Virus record (IMG/VR): IMGVR_UViG_3300025127_000146 | Location: 1-31,265 of that record | DNA length: 31,265 nt | Reading direction: 5' to 3' (one strand) | Source of the DNA: a virus | Shown: positions 4,155 through 20,637 of the stretch, one piece after another | How positions within the stretch are numbered: position 1 is the stretch's first letter | Layout: each line of letters begins with the position of its first letter | Position numbers and translations under genes: made by a program | The notes under the pieces: generated by a model | The model's database searches: none | Told to the model about the DNA's origin: nothing | Seen by the model: only the letters and a program-made list of their open reading frames with translations

Positions 4155-4349
4155 TTAGTCAGGGTTGTTAGTTTTGTTCTGCCAATCCTCAATATCTAAT
4201 CGGTTGTACCGAATAGTGTTATTAAGGATGACAGTCCATTTCGGGCCACTGGGATGACCCTTGCGAGTTTTGGTTCTCCAAAGTCGCACAGTTTGAGGTT
4301 TTACACCAAGCTCTTCAGCCAATTGATCTGAGGTTATAAGTTCATTCAT
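4155..4349 (-). CDS. Small HTH protein, excisionase/MerR-like
   Basis: The 64-residue protein contains a winged helix-turn-helix (SDQLAEELGVKPQTVRLWRT) followed by a short wing (GPKWTVILNNTIRYNRLDIE), the layout of excisionase-type or helix_turn_helix_17 proteins that bind and bend DNA. Its ATG overlaps the Rad52 stop by 4 nt. With no integrase in the window, a transcriptional or replication-accessory role is as likely as excision. Confidence 0.8.
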   Translation of the reverse strand: MNELITSDQLAEELGVKPQTVRLWRTKTRKGHPSGPKWTVILNNTIRYNRLDIEDWQNKTNNPD

Positions 4350-4981
4350 GAATCCTCCTTCTCTAAAATAAGTGTCAGTAATCCATCTCTTTGATCTTCA
4401 CTAATAGCATTAGTTTCATATCGTTTTGAAATGTTTTTCTTTAACAAACCGAGCTTGTCTTTGTTGCCTGGTTTATTAATAAAGGCTTCACATTCTTTGA
4501 TGAACTTATCACTTTCAGATCTATCAATTGGTTTATTACTTGAGACAGTTGGTTTACTATCATCAGGTTTCAACCATGCCTTGTCCTTATCGTATAAGGA
4601 CAGGCCAAATTGATCTCCAAATTGCATCAGCGCACGTTTTCTTGCATCGCTTTCCGCTTCCTTAATTGCTGATTCATGCTTTTCACCGATACTGCCCATG
4701 CGACCATGGCCAGCACCTGTTCCTTCTCTGACAATATCATCACCGACAGTAATTCTTACCTTTGCGATATAAGAAACACATTTTGGATCTTCTGCAACAA
4801 GGCCAGTTTCTATTGTTTCTGATGACCAACCATCAAAACCGAAGATGCGGTTGGCTTCCTGTATAACGTGCCAGCTTTCAACATAAGCTAACTTCTGACC
4901 ACCGCCACCTGGTCTGAAGGTGACATTGTCTTTGTTAATTTTTTGGTTAAGCAGTTTTTTCTGCTCTTCATTAAAACTCAT
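4346..4981 (-). CDS. Rad52-type ssDNA annealing protein
   Basis: ATG at 4981 gives 211 residues. It is preferred over the ATG at 5056 because it overlaps the exonuclease stop as ATGA, as elsewhere in this operon. The N-terminal half has the Rad52/22 signature: AYVESWHVIQEANRIFGFDG, then WSSETIE, a beta sheet (YIAKVRITVGDDIVREGTG), GHGRMGSIGEKHESAIKEAE and SDARKRALMQFGDQFGLSLY. The C-terminal part is a charged linker and helical tail. It probably anneals complementary ssDNA exposed by the neighbouring exonuclease, as Red beta or RecT do, for end repair and genome recombination. Confidence 0.9.
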   Translation of the reverse strand: MSFNEEQKKLLNQKINKDNVTFRPGGGGQKLAYVESWHVIQEANRIFGFDGWSSETIETGLVAEDPKCVSYIAKVRITVGDDIVREGTGAGHGRMGSIGEKHESAIKEAESDARKRALMQFGDQFGLSLYDKDKAWLKPDDSKPTVSSNKPIDRSESDKFIKECEAFINKPGNKDKLGLLKKNISKRYETNAISEDQRDGLLTLILEKEDS

Positions 4982-5781
4982 TTTTCTAAGGGGGTTGAAA
5001 ATGCCCATCGGGGCAGGGATAAAGATTGAACTCCTGTTTGACACCAGCTTGGCCAATCATCAAGCAGGCGACATTCGGCAATCTTATCTAAAGCTTCTCT
5101 AGACAGTTTTTGCCCTTCTTGCAACGCATCATCATCAAGCTCCCATAAACCAACATCAAATGGATATTCAGATTGCACTACGAGAAAGATAAATCTCTTT
5201 GCTGATGGAATTCCAGATAAATAATGAGCGCATTGAAGATGATACTTAAAATTTGCTACTGCCTTTGCAAAATCTCTGGGGTTTGCTCCTGTTCTACTGG
5301 TTTTAAGATCCACAATAGTTTCCTTGTTTAACCAGTCAGGTCGGCACTTGCAGGTCAAGCCAGAGGTGGTATCTTCCCACCAATATGATTTCTCTGCAAT
5401 ACCAAAACTCAACAACTTCTTGGCATGAGGTTCTGCAAAAACCGCATCTCTCATCTTGATGGCATTTGCCATATCAGATTCGGTAACGGCAGTCATGCCC
5501 TTTTCTTCAGCTTCCTTTGCCTCTTCCTTACCTTTTTTGGTTGTCCTGGAAGATACTGCAACAAATCTTTTTGCCAATTCATCAGGTTCAAGAACCGCAC
5601 AATGAGTCAAAGTTCCCAAGAGCATTGCACTTGTCGGTTTATGTTCTGGTCTTTCAGGATTTAGAAAAGAGTTCCAGTAAGCCTTAGGGCCATGAGATAC
5701 CATTACTTTTTGCATTGATGCTGAGATTGCAGAATCAGCATGGTATTTTTCATTTGAAATTTGAATTGATCCTGTTGTCAT
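4978..5781 (-). CDS. RecE-type exonuclease VIII-like PD-(D/E)XK nuclease
   Basis: ATG at 5781 gives 267 residues and overlaps the upstream stop as ATGA, so it is chosen over the longer frame from 5835. Visible motifs fit the RecE C-terminal nuclease: AMLLGTLTHCAVLEP early, CKCRPDWL (Asp near residue 149), IVDLKTS (Asp 158, Lys 160) and HLQCAHYLSG (Gln/Tyr motif near 183-187). The enzyme should resect 5' strands of duplex ends to give 3' tails for the adjacent Rad52-type annealase. The pair forms a complete two-component recombination system. Confidence 0.9.
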   Translation of the reverse strand: MTTGSIQISNEKYHADSAISASMQKVMVSHGPKAYWNSFLNPERPEHKPTSAMLLGTLTHCAVLEPDELAKRFVAVSSRTTKKGKEEAKEAEEKGMTAVTESDMANAIKMRDAVFAEPHAKKLLSFGIAEKSYWWEDTTSGLTCKCRPDWLNKETIVDLKTSRTGANPRDFAKAVANFKYHLQCAHYLSGIPSAKRFIFLVVQSEYPFDVGLWELDDDALQEGQKLSREALDKIAECRLLDDWPSWCQTGVQSLSLPRWAFSTPLEK

Positions 5782-6062
5782 GAGTCTGTGTACCTCTTTG
5801 TGTGAGGGCCATATTGCATCATTATCCGTGGCCATGTTTTCAAAATCAGTGCCTTGTCCTGTGGCATTGCAACAAGACCTGCCTGTGCTAATCGTTTTAA
5901 AAATGGTGATGCGTCAGGTGAATCAATTACAGATGCAAATGTATTGAAGATTTCTTTATCGGTCATGGTTAAAATTGGGTTGCCGAGGTCGGAGCGTTCA
6001 GGGGTTGGTCGCTTCTTCCTCGGTTGTTTATGGAAGCGCAGACCAAGATCATATTCACTCAT
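5778..6062 (-). CDS. Hypothetical protein (94 aa) upstream of RecE
   Basis: The start at 6062 (MSEYDLGLRFHKQPRKKRPT) shares its A with the stop of the preceding micro-gene (TGATG) and is preferred to ATG 6086. The protein is basic at the N-terminus and helical later (TDKEIFNTFASVIDSPDASP). Its stop overlaps the nuclease start. No domain is recognised; position suggests an accessory to recombination. Confidence 0.6.
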   Translation of the reverse strand: MSEYDLGLRFHKQPRKKRPTPERSDLGNPILTMTDKEIFNTFASVIDSPDASPFLKRLAQAGLVAMPQDKALILKTWPRIMMQYGPHTKRYTDS

Positions 6063-6252: not shown

Positions 6253-6871
6253 CCTTAAAAAGATTGAGTTGCTCAACAGGTATGGGAAGTCTTGACTCAT
6301 TTCCCCATTGCTCTGCCATGGCAGAGGCGATACCAGTATAAAATTTACTTCTCTCATGGCCTTTTCCACTTCCTAAATACCAGATTCTTTTTGAAATCTT
6401 ATCTGGAAGTTGCTCTGTCTCTTTGAGAACGTTGTTTGTCTCTTTTAACAAAGGTAAATTTTTCAACCACAGACAAGTCTTTTTATATTCAGTATGACCA
6501 AACTGATAAGGATTTATTGTCTGATCTGCCTGTCTTATATGGGAAGAGATCACAGAGACAGGATTTTCAATACATATATGGTCAATTGGTGCATCCATAA
6601 GTTTTTGTACAAAATCCAAGGCATCCTCACGCAGTTTTATAGGTTTTTTGCCCTCGGTAAACCATCTCGCACCCGATACAGATAAATGCGTACAGGGGGG
6701 ATGAAAAACTGCAAGCTGCCAGTCCATGTCTAAATAATCAAGAACATTTCCTTTAATATGATTACCCTTTGATTCTGAATCTAAAATGTCACATGACCAA
6801 GCGTCATGTCCTCGAACAGCAAAGGCATCTCTTACAATGCCCGAATATTCGCAACCGACAAGTACTCTCAT
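6239..6871 (-). CDS. DNA cytosine methyltransferase-like protein
   Basis: The 210-residue protein opens MRVLVGCEYSGIVRDAFAVR, a cofactor-binding motif I, followed by an acidic second strand (WSCDILDSES). HPPCTHLS (residues 57-64) is the motif IV Pro-Cys pair that carries the catalytic Cys of C5 methyltransferases, and CIENPVS (100-106) is the motif VI Glu-Asn. The protein is shorter than typical C5 enzymes and no target-recognition domain is obvious, as in small phage homologues. It could protect phage DNA from host restriction. It overlaps the upstream gene by 4 nt. Confidence 0.8.
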   Translation of the reverse strand: MRVLVGCEYSGIVRDAFAVRGHDAWSCDILDSESKGNHIKGNVLDYLDMDWQLAVFHPPCTHLSVSGARWFTEGKKPIKLREDALDFVQKLMDAPIDHICIENPVSVISSHIRQADQTINPYQFGHTEYKKTCLWLKNLPLLKETNNVLKETEQLPDKISKRIWYLGSGKGHERSKFYTGIASAMAEQWGNESRLPIPVEQLNLFKVDKC

Positions 6872-7248
6872 TCAAGTCCTTCATATAGCTTATCAAGATC
6901 ACCTTCTCTTTCTATATCTTCTCTGATTCTTTTTTCGTGAAACTCATAAAATGGGTCTTTTAAAAGTTCGTTGTATGTATTATCCTCCCTAAATTCCCAA
7001 AAATTTATTTCATCAATATTACAGTTAGTTTTTTTCATTATCTTATTTAATAAGGCATCATGGTCTTTTGCTTTCCATAGTTTTGATTTTACAAGTTTTT
7101 TGCCATCAACTTCTTCATTGATAGCTTTCCACAATGCTGCTGTAGCAAATTGTTGATTTTCTCTCTTCCTATCATTTTCGTACAAGTCATGAATGTCTCT
7201 TTCATTGCTTGTAAGTTCAATCTGGAAAACTTCAAAAGTTGGTGTCAT
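6868..7248 (-). CDS. Hypothetical acidic protein (126 aa)
   Basis: The protein is strongly charged (ERDIHDLYENDRKRENQQF near the start, IREDIEREGDLDKLYEGLE at the end) and predicted helical. Its stop overlaps the methyltransferase start as ATGA and its start follows directly on the 55-aa gene. It has no recognisable domain. Pairing with the methyltransferase suggests an accessory or host-takeover role, which is not shown. Confidence 0.65.
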   Translation of the reverse strand: MTPTFEVFQIELTSNERDIHDLYENDRKRENQQFATAALWKAINEEVDGKKLVKSKLWKAKDHDALLNKIMKKTNCNIDEINFWEFREDNTYNELLKDPFYEFHEKRIREDIEREGDLDKLYEGLE

Positions 7249-7416
7249 TTACTTGGCCTCCTTTTTTGCTTCATTATTTTCTTTGCAGAATCTTTTTATG
7301 GCTTCTTCCCTTGTAAGACCTTCTGCTTGATATTTTTTTAAAACTTCTTCAATTGCTGAAAAAAAATTTTTAGTTGTTGGGCTGTTTGCAATTTCTTGGC
7401 TGTAATCGTGTTCCAT
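7249..7416 (-). CDS. Small hypothetical protein (55 aa)
   Basis: ATG at 7416 gives MEHDYSQEIANSPTTKNFFS to EAKKEAK, a helical charged protein. It is the first gene behind the promoter at 7443-7472, and its final codons contain AAGGAGG, a strong Shine-Dalgarno for the next gene. Function is not recognised. Confidence 0.65.
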   Translation of the reverse strand: MEHDYSQEIANSPTTKNFFSAIEEVLKKYQAEGLTREEAIKRFCKENNEAKKEAK

Positions 7417-7442
7417 TTGTTTTTGTGGGTTGCTATACCCAT

Positions 7443-7472
7443 ATTATAAGCATAACTATCAACAACTGTCAA
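7443..7472 (-). promoter_or_regulatory. Sigma70-like promoter, copy 1, with conserved leader
   Basis: On the minus strand TTGACA (7472-7467) and TATAAT (7448-7443) are separated by 18 bp. The sequence GTTGTTGATAGTTATG between them and the leader GGTATAGCAACCC are nearly identical in the promoter at 8672-8701. It drives the 55-aa, 126-aa and methyltransferase genes. Confidence 0.85.
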
Positions 7473-8265
7473 CAGACCTATTGCTGTGTTTTATGTACTC
7501 CAGAACAAATAATACATCTATTGGCCAATACCAGTGTTTAATGTATCTTGCAACCAATAATACTGTGGTTGGCCTACTGCTGTATTCTTGTCACCATTTG
7601 TATTTCCAAGAGCTGTGTTTTATCAACCACTTGTATTTCCAAAAGCAATATTATTGTTACTAGTTGTATATACCAAAACCCTTGCAAACATTAAGATTAA
7701 GAATTTATTACCGATAGCTGTGTTCCTGTAACCAATAGTATTTCCTACAGCAGTATTATTAACACCAGTGGTAATTCCTATTGCTGTGTTTTGGTTACTA
7801 CTCGTAATTCCAACAGCAGTGTTTTAGTAACCATTAGTAATTCCTACAGCAGTATTATATGCACCACTTGTATTTCCTATAGCAATATTATTGTTACCAG
7901 TTGTATTTATAAAAACTCTTGCAGCTATTGAGGTTTTACACACACTACCAATTGCTATGTTTTATGTACCATTAGTAATTCCAATAGCTGTGTTCCAACA
8001 ACCATTCGTATTTTCTATTGCTGTATTATAAAGACCATTGGGATTTCCTATTGCAGTATTATAGTCACCACTTGTAAGACTAGAAACTATTGCAATAACT
8101 AGATTTATACAAAATAAACCTACAGCAGTATTATGTGTACCTATAGTATTTCCAATAGCTGTATTTTGGTTACCAGTTGTAATGCCAACAGCTGTGTTAT
8201 GTGTACTAATGGTATTTCCTACTGTTGTGTTTTAGTACAAGTGGTGACAGTAACATTGCTGTTGG
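7471..8265 (-). repeat. Non-coding NTAVG-type repeat array 1
   Basis: This 0.8-kb stretch between a promoter and a terminator has no convincing gene. Read on the minus strand it holds about 19 units whose core translates as N-T/I-A-V/I/F/L-G. Most are 33 nt (NTAVG plus six codons, often NTNGxx or ITTGxx), and roughly every third to sixth is long (72 nt). Most of the core stays in one frame, but TAA stops break it at the codon before the core Asn in several units. At both ends there are plus-oriented units (about 7503-7580 and 8236-8265). The peptide motif resembles repeats in phage tail-fibre proteins. Confidence 0.85.
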
Positions 8266-8277
8266 ATTGTGAAAACG

Positions 8278-8302
8278 CAAAAAAAAGACCCCTAAGGGTC
8301 AT
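8278..8302 (-). terminator. Rho-independent terminator
   Basis: On the minus strand GACCC-TTA-GGGGTC forms a hairpin (8300-8287) followed by a run of T (8286-8278). It lies about 20 bp after the stop of the 108-aa gene and separates it from repeat array 1. Confidence 0.85.
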
Positions 8303-8318
8303 GTATTAAGTTAACTAA

Positions 8319-8645
8319 TTATTTAATTAACTCCTTTAATTTTTTATTTGCCTGGTCTACACAACCAATACCGTCATATTGGTAACGACCTAAAGTTAAA
8401 TTTTCTTTTAGCATTTCTTGGTAAGGATCAGCGTCTTTAGGTAATTTTTTATAAACACAGATGGTTACTCTTTCCCAATCTGGGTTGCGTTTAGCTCCTT
8501 GGTGATGACCGAGGTGATGATGATAAAAAATTTCTTTTGTTTTGCCTGTAATTTGATAATGTCTGTTGTCTTTATCATTGGCTCTAAAAAATACTTCTAC
8601 AGCATTATTTTGTTTTAATAATGTTTTAATTTTGAATCCATTCAT
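8319..8645 (-). CDS. Hypothetical protein (108 aa)
   Basis: The start at ATG 8645 (MNGFKIKTLLKQNNAVEVFF) is preferred because the longer frame from 8672 would begin inside the -10 box. The protein contains a His-rich segment (IFYHHHLGHHQGAKRNPDW) and a mixed alpha/beta remainder. It is a single-gene unit with its own strong promoter and terminator, suggesting independent early expression, as for a host-takeover or regulatory protein. No family is recognised; the His cluster could bind metal. Confidence 0.7.
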   Translation of the reverse strand: MNGFKIKTLLKQNNAVEVFFRANDKDNRHYQITGKTKEIFYHHHLGHHQGAKRNPDWERVTICVYKKLPKDADPYQEMLKENLTLGRYQYDGIGCVDQANKKLKELIK

Positions 8646-8671
8646 TTGATTAGTGGGGTTGCTATACCTCA

Positions 8672-8701
8672 ATTATAAACATAACTATCAACAATTGTCA
8701 A
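8672..8701 (-). promoter_or_regulatory. Sigma70-like promoter, copy 2, with conserved leader
   Basis: On the minus strand TTGACA (8701-8696), 18-bp spacer ATTGTTGATAGTTATGTT, TATAAT (8677-8672), then a leader containing GGTATAGCAACCCC before the ATG at 8645. The -35 overlaps the stop of the VRR-NUC gene. It matches the promoter at 7443-7472 almost base for base. Confidence 0.85.
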
Positions 8702-8937
8702 CAAGGTTTCATTACTTTTACATCGAATCCCTTTTCTTTCAACTCTTCAATCCTATACTTCTGGATTTCACTTAATCTTCCCTTCTCGCTCTTGACCTCT
8801 ATAAATTTAACCTCATCTGGTTTCATACAGATCAAATCCGGCAAGCCAGCCTTGTTGCACATAATTAACTTGATTACTGTCCATCCTTCTTTTTCGTGCC
8901 TGTCGATCAGCTTCTTCTGATATTGAGCCTCTGTCAT
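8698..8937 (-). CDS. VRR-NUC domain nuclease
   Basis: The 79-residue protein shows the compact PD-(D/E)XK fold of VRR-NUC enzymes: a helical start (MTEAQYQKKLIDRHEKEGW), strand and GLPDLICM with the metal-binding Asp, then KFIEVKSEKGRLSEIQKYRI with the E-x-K pair and the conserved Q, ending in GFDVKVMKP. In phages this family is usually paired with an SNF2-type helicase and acts on DNA junctions or replication intermediates. Here its start lies inside the 3' end of such a helicase frame. Confidence 0.9.
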   Translation of the reverse strand: MTEAQYQKKLIDRHEKEGWTVIKLIMCNKAGLPDLICMKPDEVKFIEVKSEKGRLSEIQKYRIEELKEKGFDVKVMKPC

Positions 8938-10150
8938 TTCTATAATGATTGATCGTGTAGCTTTCCTTTGATTGTACTACCTGATAAACTTTTGGCTCGA
9001 TTCCCTTCTCTGCAAAAATATAATGTATTTTATTCTTTCTTTCCCTACCAAGAAAACTTGCTCTTTCTCTTCCCTGTAAATAACTAAGTGCAGAATAATC
9101 TATTCCCAAAAAAATCAGGTGATCGGCACTACTTAAATTTACACCCTCACGACAACTTTTGACCTGACCGATAAAAACAGAATCGCTTACAGCATTAAAT
9201 ATATCTGGATCATCTGTTGCCCTAGCACCAAAACTTTCTCTGAGCATTTTGCCTTCAGCAATAAAGCAATATAATATGGCAATCCTTCCACTGAAGTTAT
9301 TTTTTATATATTCAATCTTGCTTTTATCAAAAACTACAGCACCATGATTCTCCGTGATCACATGGCCATTATAAATCTGCCTTAATTTGCTCATAACTTT
9401 AGCCCCTGTATCTGCCACGACTGATCTTCTACCTGGTTTACCAATAACACCGTTTTTTAATATCCGATAGGCAAGACGATAAGTTCTTCTCGACATCTTC
9501 ACAAGATGCACTTCCTCCTCAACCTCCTGAGTAAAACCAGCTTCTTTCTGAGTCATCTGCACAGTATAAGGTTCAATATCTTTTAAAATTCTGCTTTGCC
9601 TGGCCTCTGAATAATCTTTGATAACAACACCAGTTCCAACTCTTTTCTCCTTTACATCAACATAATCACTAGCCCACCTGTAAAAGTTCTGATATTTACT
9701 CCATAAAAAAGGTGTTAAAGACCATTGATGATAAAGCTGACTAAAACTTTCAGGGCTTGGTGTTCCACTCATCAAAATAATGCTGTTATATCTAAGCTGC
9801 AAAATATTCTGATATCGTTGAGATGGTTTTGGAAATGCTCCCACACTATGGGCTTCATCAACAATGATCATGTTCCAGCTTGTACCCTTGAAATTTTTTA
9901 ACTGTTCAAAGTTAGTTATGGATACTACCCTCTCAAGATTCATCTTTTCAACATCACTTTTTATACTAGGGATTGCTTTTTTCTTAGTAATTACCAACAC
10001 CTTTTCAAGTGCCATATTTCTGACAACAGATAAGGCAACAAGTGTTTTGCCTGTCCTACATTCACCACTTAAATATGCACATTTCTTGATCTGACAAAGT
10101 TTTGTCAACTTTCTGCTTGCTGCTTTTTGATATTCTCTTAATTTAACCAT
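8813..10150 (-). CDS. SNF2-type DEAH helicase
   Basis: The 445-residue protein has LREYQKAA (Q-motif-like) at the N-terminus, Walker A GECRTGKT (29-36), motif II IIVDEAH (95-101), motif III LMSGTPSP (127-133) and a helicase C-terminal half ending with FLGIDYSALSYLQGRERASF (motifs V-VI). This is the phage SNF2/superfamily 2 helicase type that translocates on duplex DNA and usually accompanies VRR-NUC. The last 42 or so residues overlap the nuclease gene in another frame and look less conserved, so the extension may be recent. It is divergently transcribed from the RHH regulator. Confidence 0.88.
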   Translation of the reverse strand: MVKLREYQKAASRKLTKLCQIKKCAYLSGECRTGKTLVALSVVRNMALEKVLVITKKKAIPSIKSDVEKMNLERVVSITNFEQLKNFKGTSWNMIIVDEAHSVGAFPKPSQRYQNILQLRYNSIILMSGTPSPESFSQLYHQWSLTPFLWSKYQNFYRWASDYVDVKEKRVGTGVVIKDYSEARQSRILKDIEPYTVQMTQKEAGFTQEVEEEVHLVKMSRRTYRLAYRILKNGVIGKPGRRSVVADTGAKVMSKLRQIYNGHVITENHGAVVFDKSKIEYIKNNFSGRIAILYCFIAEGKMLRESFGARATDDPDIFNAVSDSVFIGQVKSCREGVNLSSADHLIFLGIDYSALSYLQGRERASFLGRERKNKIHYIFAEKGIEPKVYQVVQSKESYTINHYRNDRGSISEEADRQARKRRMDSNQVNYVQQGWLAGFDLYETR

Positions 10151-15723: not shown

Positions 15724-16914
15724 ATGGCAGTTCCAGAAGCTTTTTATCGTGAAGCGATTGATTTGAACAGATACAGCAATAAGGTTCAGTTTCAAATTGC
15801 TAGTCAATTCAATGAGGTAATTTTAGATGTATTACGAAAGATAAGAGATCTTGAGGGCAACAGCCCAACTACAACTGCAAGACTGCGATCAATATTGGCA
15901 CAAATGGTTGATAGTTTAAAAGGTTGGGAAAATGAAAGCGCAGTTTATATGATTGATGAATTGCAAAACTTAGCAGAATTTCAAGTTGGTTTTGTTAAGG
16001 ATCAATTGCAAAGAGTTTTACCAAAAGGAGAGTTTCAGGTAAACACAGTTGCTGTTTCTCCTGACTTTGCAAAATCTATTGTCACAAAAGATCCGACTGC
16101 TATGACCATAAGATTAAGAGATAAAGATGGTGTGTTTAGATCTGCTCAGTTTGCATTGACTGCAAAAAGAGGATCGGAAATATCATTACCAAATGGCAAA
16201 AATGTAAAAAAATCATTTAGAGGTATTGCTGAAGATTCTGCTTCAAGACTTTCAAAAGCAATCAGACTTGGTGTTTTGGAAGGTGAATCTTTACCAAAGA
16301 TTGTAAGAAGGTTAAAAGGGCCAAACCTTAGATTTAATGCCAAACCACAAAATGCAATCGCATTGAACTCTGCTTTAAAAAATTCAGAGGGGATGCTTTT
16401 ATCAAATAAACAAATACAAACTGTTGTAAGAACAACTGTAAACCAGGTACAAAATGCAGCAAGTCAGGCGGTATATGCAGCAAACAAAGATATCACTGGA
16501 AGGTATCAATATGTGGCAACGCTTGATGCAAGGACAAGTTCTATCTGTCAAAGGTTAGATGGTCAATTGTTTAGATATGATCAAGGGCCTGTTCCTCCAC
16601 AACATTTCAACTGCCGATCAACTACTGTTCCTGTTATTGATGATGATGATTTGGCAAGGGCTTTTCCTAATACAAGACCAAGTGCAACAGGTCGTGTTCC
16701 TCAAAACACAAACTATGCAAACTGGTTGAAAGATAATCCTGATGTACAGGACAAGGTATTGGGGAAAAAGAAAAGATATTTCAATTATTTGATGAGTCCT
16801 AAAAGAGGTACAAAACAACTAAACGCCACAAATGCCTTAAAAAAAATTATCCGTGAAGATGGAACAGAGCTAACATTGAAGGAACTAGCTGCAAAATACA
16901 AAGATGCCAATTAA
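15724..16914 (+). CDS. Mu F-like minor head protein
   Basis: The 396-residue protein has a helical N-terminal half and a C-terminal Mu F domain: QTVVRTTVNQVQNAASQAVY, then YVATLDARTSSICQRLDGQL, PVPPQHFNCRSTTVPV with the conserved Cys/His pattern. In SPP1 and Mu such proteins bind the portal and aid head assembly or DNA injection. The N-terminal half has no recognised domain. It overlaps the following micro-gene by 11 nt. Confidence 0.9.
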   Translation: MAVPEAFYREAIDLNRYSNKVQFQIASQFNEVILDVLRKIRDLEGNSPTTTARLRSILAQMVDSLKGWENESAVYMIDELQNLAEFQVGFVKDQLQRVLPKGEFQVNTVAVSPDFAKSIVTKDPTAMTIRLRDKDGVFRSAQFALTAKRGSEISLPNGKNVKKSFRGIAEDSASRLSKAIRLGVLEGESLPKIVRRLKGPNLRFNAKPQNAIALNSALKNSEGMLLSNKQIQTVVRTTVNQVQNAASQAVYAANKDITGRYQYVATLDARTSSICQRLDGQLFRYDQGPVPPQHFNCRSTTVPVIDDDDLARAFPNTRPSATGRVPQNTNYANWLKDNPDVQDKVLGKKKRYFNYLMSPKRGTKQLNATNALKKIIREDGTELTLKELAAKYKDAN

Positions 16915-17035
16915 AAAAGGAAAGTCACAAAAGACAATCACTGGCAATATCAGAATGTTGATGAAAGAAGGCAAGTCAAGATCACAAGCTGTGGCGATAG
17001 CTTTATCAACTGCTAAAAAACGCAAAAAGAAGTAA
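16904..17035 (+). CDS. DUF6496-like small basic protein
   Basis: The 43-residue protein MPIKKGKSQKTITGNIRMLM to TAKKRKKK has the pattern of DUF6496-like phage proteins: KKGKS at the start and an S-R-S-Q-A-V-A-I-A-L motif near the end. It starts inside the Mu F gene. Its last 27 nt are duplicated, with four mismatches, at 17464-17490 on the far side of repeat array 2. Its function is unknown; a DNA-binding or virion-internal role is guessed from charge. Confidence 0.75.
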   Translation: MPIKKGKSQKTITGNIRMLMKEGKSRSQAVAIALSTAKKRKKK

Positions 17036-17040
17036 TTACA

Positions 17041-17450
17041 ATAGGTACATAAAACACTGCTGTTGGTTTTGTTGCGAGAAACTAAAATACCGCAGTAGGA
17101 AATACGATAAGTACATAAAACACTGCTGTTGGTTTAATTTATATAAAGCTAGTTATTGCAATGGTTTTTACTCTTACAAGTGGTTACTATAATATTGCTA
17201 TTGGTAATTACTATTGGTATATATAACACAGCTATTGGAAATACCAAAGGTTACTAAAACACAGCAGTAGGAAATACAAGCGGTACTAATAATACAGCAG
17301 TTGGTTAAATTGCATGAAACTAAAACACAGCAGTTGGTTGTTTTACACAAAAGGTAGTTATTGCAAGACTTTTAACTACCACAAGTGGTGAGCATAATAT
17401 TGCTATTGGTAAATACCATTGGTAACGATAATACTGCTGTTGGCTAAAAG
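17041..17450 (+). repeat. Non-coding NTAVG-type repeat array 2
   Basis: About 10 units whose core reads N-T/I-A-V/I-G on the plus strand fill the 410 bp between two small late genes. Spacing is again 33 nt or about 72 nt. The long unit (LIYIKLVIAMVFTLTSGYYN) closely matches one in array 1 (LFCINLVIAIVSSLTSGDYN), so the arrays share ancestry. TAA stands before the core Asn in five units. One-base insertions near 17206 and 17411 shift the frame, so the array cannot be read as one protein. No start codon and ribosome site for it is evident. Confidence 0.85.
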
Positions 17451-17463
17451 CTTTGTTTTAAAA

Positions 17464-17490
17464 ACAGCTAAGAACCGCAAAAGGAAGTAA
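17464..17490 (+). repeat. Duplicate of the DUF6496-like gene 3' end
   Basis: These 27 nt read T-A-K-N-R-K-R-K-stop and match 17009-17035 (T-A-K-K-R-K-K-K-stop) at 23 of 27 positions. The two copies flank repeat array 2 in direct orientation, as if the array had been inserted at, or exchanged through, the end of this gene. Confidence 0.75.
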
Positions 17491-19347: not shown

Positions 19348-20637
19348 ATGGCTACATTGAGGTCGGATTTAATAATACCTGAAGTGTTCACCCCCTACTT
19401 AATTGAAGAGACAACTCAAAGAGATGCCTTCCTACAGAGTGGGGTAGTAACACCTTTGGCAGAATTAAATCTTTCAGCAGAGCGTGGAGGAGATTTCGTT
19501 AAGATCCCTCGTCTAGATTGGGGGCTTATGTTGGTAACAGCATAATGAAACAAGGTGAATTGCTGGGAGTCCACCATTAAAGGATAATCAGCAGCCAAGC
19601 CAGCCTACAAGCTGGAAGGTTCAGAGACTAGAAGCCGACAGGAAACTGAGTAATGCTTCCACGAGTGCCTTGCAACCCTCTGGGTTGAAGATATAGTCCG
19701 ACCTACATCAATGGAAAAGATGTAGAACCGAAAGATAAAGAGCTTTCGGGATAACAAAGTGTTCTACAAAGCAAACCTATCTGGAGACTTTGAAGTTCTC
19801 ACAGATTCATTATCATTAACACCTGGCAAGATCACAGCTGACAATCAGATTGCAGCCGTGCTACACCGTGGACGAGCATTTTCTTCTCGTGATTTAGCAG
19901 CACTTGCAGTTGGTGGTGGCCCAGATCCAATGGCTGCTATCGCTCAGAAGATGGCTGCTTATGTTAACAACCAGAAACAGAAAGATTTATTCTCCTGTCT
20001 AACTGGTGCATTTGGTTCTATCAATGCAAACGACAGCAACTCTGCTTTGTTTGATTTAACGATTGATTCAGAATCAGGTGATACTCCAACAACATTAAGT
20101 CCTCGTCATATTGCGAAGGCAAAATCCTTACTTGGAGATCAAGGATCAAAACTAACAACAGTTGCGATGCACTCCAACGTTTATGGAGACTTGTTAGAGC
20201 GAAATATGATTGATCGCATCTACGACAACACAGGCGCACCTGACACAGGAGCGACAGGTGGTAGTACTGTCAGAGCATTTGATGGCCCTAATGTTGTTGA
20301 AACATTTGGAGGTCTTAGAATTATTGTTTCGGATGATGTTCCAACAACAGGTTCTGGTGCTTCTACGGAATTCAGTACGTTCTTTTTTACAGAAGGAGCA
20401 GTTGTAACAGGAGAGCAGGCTCCAATCAGAACACAAACAGATAGAGACATCCTTGCTTTAGAAGAAGCAATGGCTGTGGATCTCCACTACATCTATCATC
20501 CTGTAGGTCTTAAATACGCTGTTTCAACAGTAAACCCAACAAGAACTGTGTTGGAAACTGTTGCTTCATGGTCGAAAGTTTATGAGACTAAGAATATAGG
20601 AATCGTCAGGGCGACCAACGTATCCAATATGGATTAA
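19348..20637 (+). CDS. Major capsid protein, split by a group I intron
   Basis: Coding sequence is 19348-19509 joined to 19762-20637, 345 residues. Exon 1 ends SAERGGDFVKIP and exon 2 begins FYKANLSGDFEVLTDS. Joined, they restore the continuous beta-strand segment (D-F-V-K-I-P-F-Y-K) seen in this capsid family, followed by SLTPGKITADNQIAAVLHRG and MAAYVNNQKQKDLFSCLTGA. Without splicing, exon 1 would end after 65 residues at TAA in the intron. Position after the scaffold and before a decoration-like gene fits the main shell protein, presumably of HK97 fold. Confidence 0.9.
19510..19761 (+). ncRNA. Self-splicing group I (IA-like) intron in the capsid gene
   Basis: All core elements can be drawn. 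P1: exon TCCCT (19505-19509) with GGGGG (19520-19524), the splice-site U pairing with G. P2: 19526-19533/19538-19545 with a GTAA loop. P3: CAAGG (19551)/CCTTG (19668). P4: GCTG (19562)/CAGC (19589). P6 extension: CCAGC/GCTGG. P7: GACTA (19626-19630)/TAGTC (19694-19698) inside GTTCAGAGACTA and AAGATATAGTCC. P7.1-7.2 with a GAAA loop (19631-19659). P8: CAACCC/GGGTTG. P9: CTACATC/GATGTAG, plus a further hairpin. The last base is G. The P7.1-7.2 elements place it in IA. It has no endonuclease ORF. Confidence 0.93.

Follow-up and report, generated by a model that had tools for sequence, protein, structure and literature searches.

Genome context and the repeat arrays of the window

The window, by which we mean the whole stretch of DNA analyzed, is a 31,265-base IMG/VR virus record that stops inside J. 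Its large terminase shows 51% identity to those of the Prochlorococcus siphoviruses MED4-184 and MED4-117, so that the virus is probably a cyanosiphovirus, with a putative host. No reverse-transcriptase (PF00078) match that would point to a diversity-generating retroelement was detected in this incomplete record, although the positive controls were. Two genes are of interest with respect to repeat sequences:

4346-5056, minus strand: Rad52-type single-strand annealing protein, a candidate agent of repeat exchange
4978-5835, minus strand: exonuclease VIII-like PD-(D/E)XK nuclease (PHROG 412), the probable partner of the annealing protein

The first of two tandem-repeat arrays, array A, lies at a locus (site A) with the following features:

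7414-7471, minus strand: 58-bp direct repeat bearing a promoter (83%; partner at 8643-8700)
7443-7472, minus strand: perfect sigma-70-type promoter (12/12), bordering array A on the 3' side
7477-8266, minus strand: array A, delimited by direct reading of units and by a position weight matrix
8287-8300, minus strand: intrinsic terminator, a hairpin with an 8-T run, on the 5' side of array A
8319-8672, minus strand: 117-aa gene of unknown function, upstream of array A
8643-8700, minus strand: upstream copy of the promoter-bearing 58-bp direct repeat
8701-8672, minus strand: second perfect 12/12 sigma-70-type promoter, before the gene preceding array A

In array A, an inverted first unit (8266-8236) at the 5' end is followed by about 22 direct units, the majority 33 nt long; three 39-nt inserts create 72-nt composites, and the last element, at the 3' end, is a core (7477-7490). 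When the units were made into a position weight matrix, it matched 22 times on the minus strand of the array, with 33-nt spacing and periodic 39-nt steps. With the threshold set at a score of ≥20, the window contains 15 matching places on the minus strand and 9 on the plus strand, whereas first-order Markov controls (n = 100) average 0.06 per genome; since these very arrays served to train the matrix, the score gives rarity rather than independent discovery. Unit-boundary coordinates are conventions, and unit counts are non-independent, the units being related. The promoter at 7443-7472 faces outward from the array and reads into the gene that follows, and the two copies of the 58-bp repeat bracket the gene at 8319-8672, the terminator, and the array. 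The terminator is also found at loci L006 and L095. The 117-aa gene gave no match in Pfam or PHROGs; its homologues occur on the array-bearing loci L006, L095, and L096. L022 and L028 lack both the array and this gene at site A and have a single copy of the promoter repeat. As a separate observation, site A as a whole (window 6860-8940; L022, L028, L006) is a small accessory-gene site made of promoter-gene-terminator modules, in which near-identical perfect promoter copies (TTGACA-18-TATAAT) precede different genes in each relative.

The second array, array B, lies at site B, which comprises:

16904-17035, plus strand: small 43-aa gene (PHROG 2423), function unknown, with its stop codon directly against array B
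17037-17443, plus strand: array B, 11 recognizable units with 39- and 34-nt irregularities, running through all three frames
17462-17487, plus strand: diverged second copy of the 3' end of the 43-aa gene, beyond array B (first copy at 17007-17032)

The 43-aa gene follows a Mu F-like head gene, and array B starts right past its stop. Arrays A and B are 75% identical over 289 nt, and both are sense to their neighboring genes. The duplication at site B spans 26 nt and is about 80% identical rather than exact; it is therefore either old or a product of recombination between alleles.

Coding capacity and codon-like variation

Six-frame translation of arrays A and B yields stops in all frames, no start codon, and nothing beyond the repeat units, with neither a Peptidase_S74 domain nor an N-terminal attachment segment. 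The 123 distinct standard 33-nt units contain 51 in-frame stops, against 42.2 ± 3.5 after column-wise permutation of letters; the real count was not exceeded in 498 of 500 permutations. TAA is the commonest in-frame stop within the arrays and occupies codon 11 in 37 of these 123 units. There are also irregular units of 34, 49, 51, 67, and 100 nt and others, several of which break the frame and some of which are conserved in place. Given stops at or above the chance level and irregular units that shift the frame, the arrays are non-coding: arrays A and B encode no protein, and stops are not avoided in them. Coding under another genetic code was considered and rejected, since TAA also serves 17 of 28 genes as their regular stop and the 34-nt units break the frame.

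These results uphold most of what an earlier sequence-only reading had described. It had proposed a real, non-coding array between a terminator and a promoter, all of which were located, with the bounds now at 7477-8266 on the minus strand. The nearly unbroken minus-strand frame that it noted can be read directly from 8266 to 7477, with TAA stops and no usable start, and its claim that no protein of normal length could issue from the array agrees with the stops in all frames, the missing start, and the frame-breaking units. Its minus-strand N-T-A-V/I-G units stand, but its tally of about 19 became about 22, of mixed lengths (33, 34, and 72 nt, the last being 33+39), and it had overlooked both array B and the inverted first unit of array A.

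The core of the unit reads AAY ACW GCW RTW GG (the 14-nt core AAYACWGCWRTWGG) and is about 99% conserved at most first and second codon positions. Between pairs of arrays that are 88-93% identical, core differences affect third codon positions most (16.0%), then first (6.5%) and second (2.5%) positions, in line with the codon-level conservation claimed earlier. These differences fall in columns that are also polymorphic among units; much of the core variation may thus reflect old variants traded among arrays and not fresh mutation. Rare core variants number 17, 11, and 17 at codon positions 1, 2, and 3, a spread that fits little present constraint, in a test blunted by the scoring of only C and G as rare at the third position. 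The core conservation, together with the recurrence of the same pattern in other phage groups, hints at some constraint on the arrays. Third positions are nearly all A or T (no GCG, no GTG, and a single ACG in 311 units), and in phage genes G-ending codons make up 8-11% for those same amino acids. The value of this A/T restriction as proof of a signal in the DNA is weakened by the fact that A-T changes are also the commonest at fourfold sites of this family's TerL (41%).

Distribution and probable movement among phages

At site B, the flanking genes of about 40 same-family loci without an array are about 180-245 nt apart, with legible sequence on both sides, against 559-1377 nt in array-bearing loci; the latter came from a pattern search, so that their counts give no frequency. 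In a terminase-based sample, arrays were seen only in L006 and L007, very likely one virus, at site A. The third site is the spacer between terS and terL, where the array is reversed and adjoins the terS stop codon (L090, L096, L100); no duplication beyond that of shuffles was found at this site. The same array thus occurs at different sites, with relatives that have empty ones, as befits an optional element. An array of about 790 nt at site A of L006 shows 90% identity to its counterpart at site B of L091 and 93% identity to that of L100, despite TerL identities to the window of 97% for L006 and 36% for L100 (partial). These sequence comparisons are best explained if the array has moved horizontally from one phage to another that is only distantly related. 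Array A is also 90% identical to parts of the arrays in L087 and L092, closer than it is to array B (75%). The end points of arrays recur at all sites, the start lying within a linker and the end on a core.

Short arrays of two to four of the same units occur in spacers of other phage groups, often near terminator-like hairpins. These groups are as follows:

L101 and L113
L102, L104, L110, and L116
L105 and L108
L107
L120 and L123

Near-palindromes such as CGAACAATTGTTCGG lie near or between units in the short arrays of L120, L123, L113, and L104. The array is antisense to its neighbors in L090, L096, L100, L101, L102, L104, L110, L113, and L123; the idea that arrays are always sense to transcription, which holds in the window, was dropped in view of these nine loci. 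The array-bearing relatives outside the window are all metagenome assemblies, mostly short, and short-read assemblies probably break at arrays, so that the present array counts are minima. The two-unit pattern had no match in genomes of 84,980 bacterial and archaeal species, and blastn against 50,697 deposited phage records found no array. A cyanophage P-SS2 match to the L113 region was set aside; it contains no repeat units and is probably just a terminator hairpin. In the part of the literature that was covered, no description of such arrays was found.

Relationship to coding NTAVG fibre genes

Relatives were searched with the repeat peptide, with stops read through, which separated non-coding arrays from intact genes. 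Intact NTAVG open frames of 579-957 codons were recovered in G004, G006, G010, and G011, with a 17-residue unit, N-T-A-V-G-x-x-A-L-x-x-N-T-T-G-x-x, and the one gene tested has a Peptidase_S74 domain (PF13884). In G004, G006, and G011 the gene directly follows the J homologue, which in G011 is 77% identical to that of the window, so that the coding gene sought after J by the sequence-only reading does exist in relatives. As the record ends inside J, the window's own fibre gene would lie outside it. The arrays share with these S74-bearing tail-fibre or tail-spike proteins the N-T-A-V/I-G and then N-T-x-G core, the tandem repetition, and the phage family. They differ from them in having no start or S74, many stops and frame breaks, other sites, and an 11-codon unit, which equals the 17-codon fibre unit minus six codons. 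We also observed intact frames of up to 884 codons in L109, L111, L115, L093, L094, and L124 with the 11-codon coding repeat NTAVGNTTGDN, which in unit length is nearer to the arrays than is the family's own fibre gene.

Silent cassette stores are known in the form of vls and pilS, and arrays A and B resemble these in being arrays of variant units that look like part of a surface-protein gene. If they acted likewise, their units would be donated by gene conversion to the NTAVG fibre gene and vary the receptor-binding protein. In favor of this, relatives have a coding gene of variable unit number after J, the phage encodes an annealing protein and an exonuclease, and units are shuffled between arrays. 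This is nevertheless improbable. The arrays and the four fibre genes share 22, 32, 30, and 51 14-mers, against 26.3 ± 7.6, 30.3 ± 6.1, 31.9 ± 8.9, and 37.1 ± 8.9 after synonymous shuffling, and their longest common DNA words are of 18-21 nt. Sharing of 14- and 17-mers is not above the shuffles in three of the four genes, and the fourth stands about 1.6 SD above for 14-mers; since shared words are about as frequent as in synonymous shuffles, there is no sign of DNA exchange between array and fibre gene in the relatives' genes (that of the window phage being outside its record). Moreover, the units are of 11 rather than 17 codons, the arrays almost never have G at third positions while the fibre genes use GCG, GTG, and ACG, and stop-filled donor units would kill the fibre. 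Arrays also occur in records in which no coding NTAVG gene was detected (e.g., G017), possibly fragments. Unlike vls and pilS, the arrays bear no trace of exchange with a coding gene, have units with stops, and occur in distant phages as a unit.

That a former NTAVG fibre gene, or a fragment of one, has rotted in place at each site is less probable still. The codon-like polymorphism and the existence of coding relatives of the repeat, including the 11-codon versions of L109, L111, and L115, speak for such decay. Against it, the arrays sit at at least three unlike sites, in both orientations and with recurrent end points, lack the N-terminal and S74 segments, have TAA at the same codon across distant phage groups, possess a core more conserved than that of the coding gene, and are 93% identical between phages at 36% TerL identity; around an array, the fibre gene's own ends and neighbors were seen at no single site. 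Of the two explanations offered by the sequence-only reading, then, the silent store fails on the lack of a shared-word excess and on the 11- versus 17-codon units, and decay in place on the unrelated sites, the two orientations, and the 93% identity in distant phages. It had also suggested comparing strains for shuffled units, and units are indeed shuffled between them. It would have abandoned its view had there been neither a coding gene nor codon bias; both are present, yet neither of its explanations is supported.

Protein-binding and RNA-structure readings

Direct repeats in the form of iteron arrays are found at replication origins and partition sites, and the present units, being directly repeated, conserved, non-coding, and roughly 20-35 nt long, invite the comparison. 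Each 14-nt core would then be a putative site for a phage or host protein, multiplied by the array, and the candidate roles of the binder would be replication, segregation, packaging, or transcription. A DNA-binding role of this kind would explain the conserved core, which is strongly conserved across several phage groups and accepts either of two letters at only a few positions (Y, W, W, R, W); the arrays are, in addition, independent of orientation and always in spacers, some of them in the terS-terL gap or next to terminators. Still, we consider it unlikely. Most family members have no arrays at the surveyed sites, which argues against an essential role, arrays have as few as 2-3 copies or as many as about 29, the spacings of 33, 34, 39, and 72 nt are poorly phased with the helix, and no binding protein was identified. 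Iterons thus differ from the arrays, which are mostly missing from relatives at the surveyed sites, lie at unrelated positions, and vary hugely in copy number.

A transcript of the array might alternatively fold by pairing of A-type (ACAGCAGT) with T-type (ACTGCTGT) units, the two types being reverse complements of each other along 8 nt; to the eye, some hairpins of the 72-nt units seem to be compensated, and the folding energy of array A is below that of 20 of 20 shuffles (z = -2.1). Against this, permutation of columns or whole units leaves the mean folding energy of 12 arrays unchanged (z around 0), the column permutations having been examined on both strands. The consensus fold is weak, the arrays have no Rfam match, and in several phages they are antisense to neighboring genes. 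A structured RNA is accordingly a poor candidate, as improbable as the silent store.

A probable tandem-repeat cassette of marine siphophages

We favor, at a probability of roughly 0.55, the reading that marine siphophages share a non-coding tandem-repeat cassette, which passes horizontally between them and settles in gene spacers, and that arrays A and B are two of its copies. The comparisons establish that this cassette is optional, has consistent ends, occupies several unlike sites in both orientations, and has its units and blocks rearranged between arrays. Judging by its pattern, the unit may have originated in a coding repeat, rich in A and T, of the N-T-A-V-G-N-T-x-G adhesin or fibre type, an ancestry that would have left the codon-like pattern in the arrays. 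Homologous annealing between units could let the arrays grow, shrink, and exchange blocks; plausible agents of this are the Rad52-type annealing protein and exonuclease VIII that the phage encodes. The cassette would persist mainly since spacer positions tolerate insertion, and perhaps also by offering homology for module exchange.

Among dispersed non-autonomous repeats of prokaryotes, which are non-coding and located in spacers, REP/BIME and MITE-like elements come closest. The arrays are like them in lying in spacers at several sites, with optional presence and consistent ends. They are unlike them in consisting of tandem 33-nt units in variable number, in being found, with the patterns used, in virus records only, and in having no inverted repeat of a known transposase, no target duplication, and no identified helper enzyme. 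In the searches made, no mobility enzyme, terminal inverted repeats, or exact target duplication were identified for the arrays. We would tentatively suggest, as a possibility that we rate well below even, that they represent an undescribed class of phage-specific mobile DNA, in which a non-coding tandem-repeat cassette moves between sites and distant marine phages with no mobility gene of its own and keeps a protein-like codon pattern by selection independent of translation.

Phage genomes are usually considered too compact for dispersed non-coding repeats, and this rare element has found its way into several groups of marine phages, exactly in their spacers. If confirmed, this would point to a mode of mobility or exchange in ocean phages that is invisible to gene-based surveys, with the arrays giving genomes that are otherwise unrelated a stretch of homology in common. 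The finding also cautions against annotating such arrays as fibre pseudogenes.

Two further features were encountered in the course of the comparisons. The contig carrying L044 and L052 (IMGVR_UViG_3300030376_002052; 55,807 bases) has two terminase genes and two J homologues and is perhaps two joined genomes or a chimera. In the window, a group I intron (Rfam RF00028, 78.8 bits) at 19500-19725 on the plus strand interrupts the apparent major head protein gene; the array-bearing loci L088 and L097 align up to 19508 and again from about 19762, without the intron.
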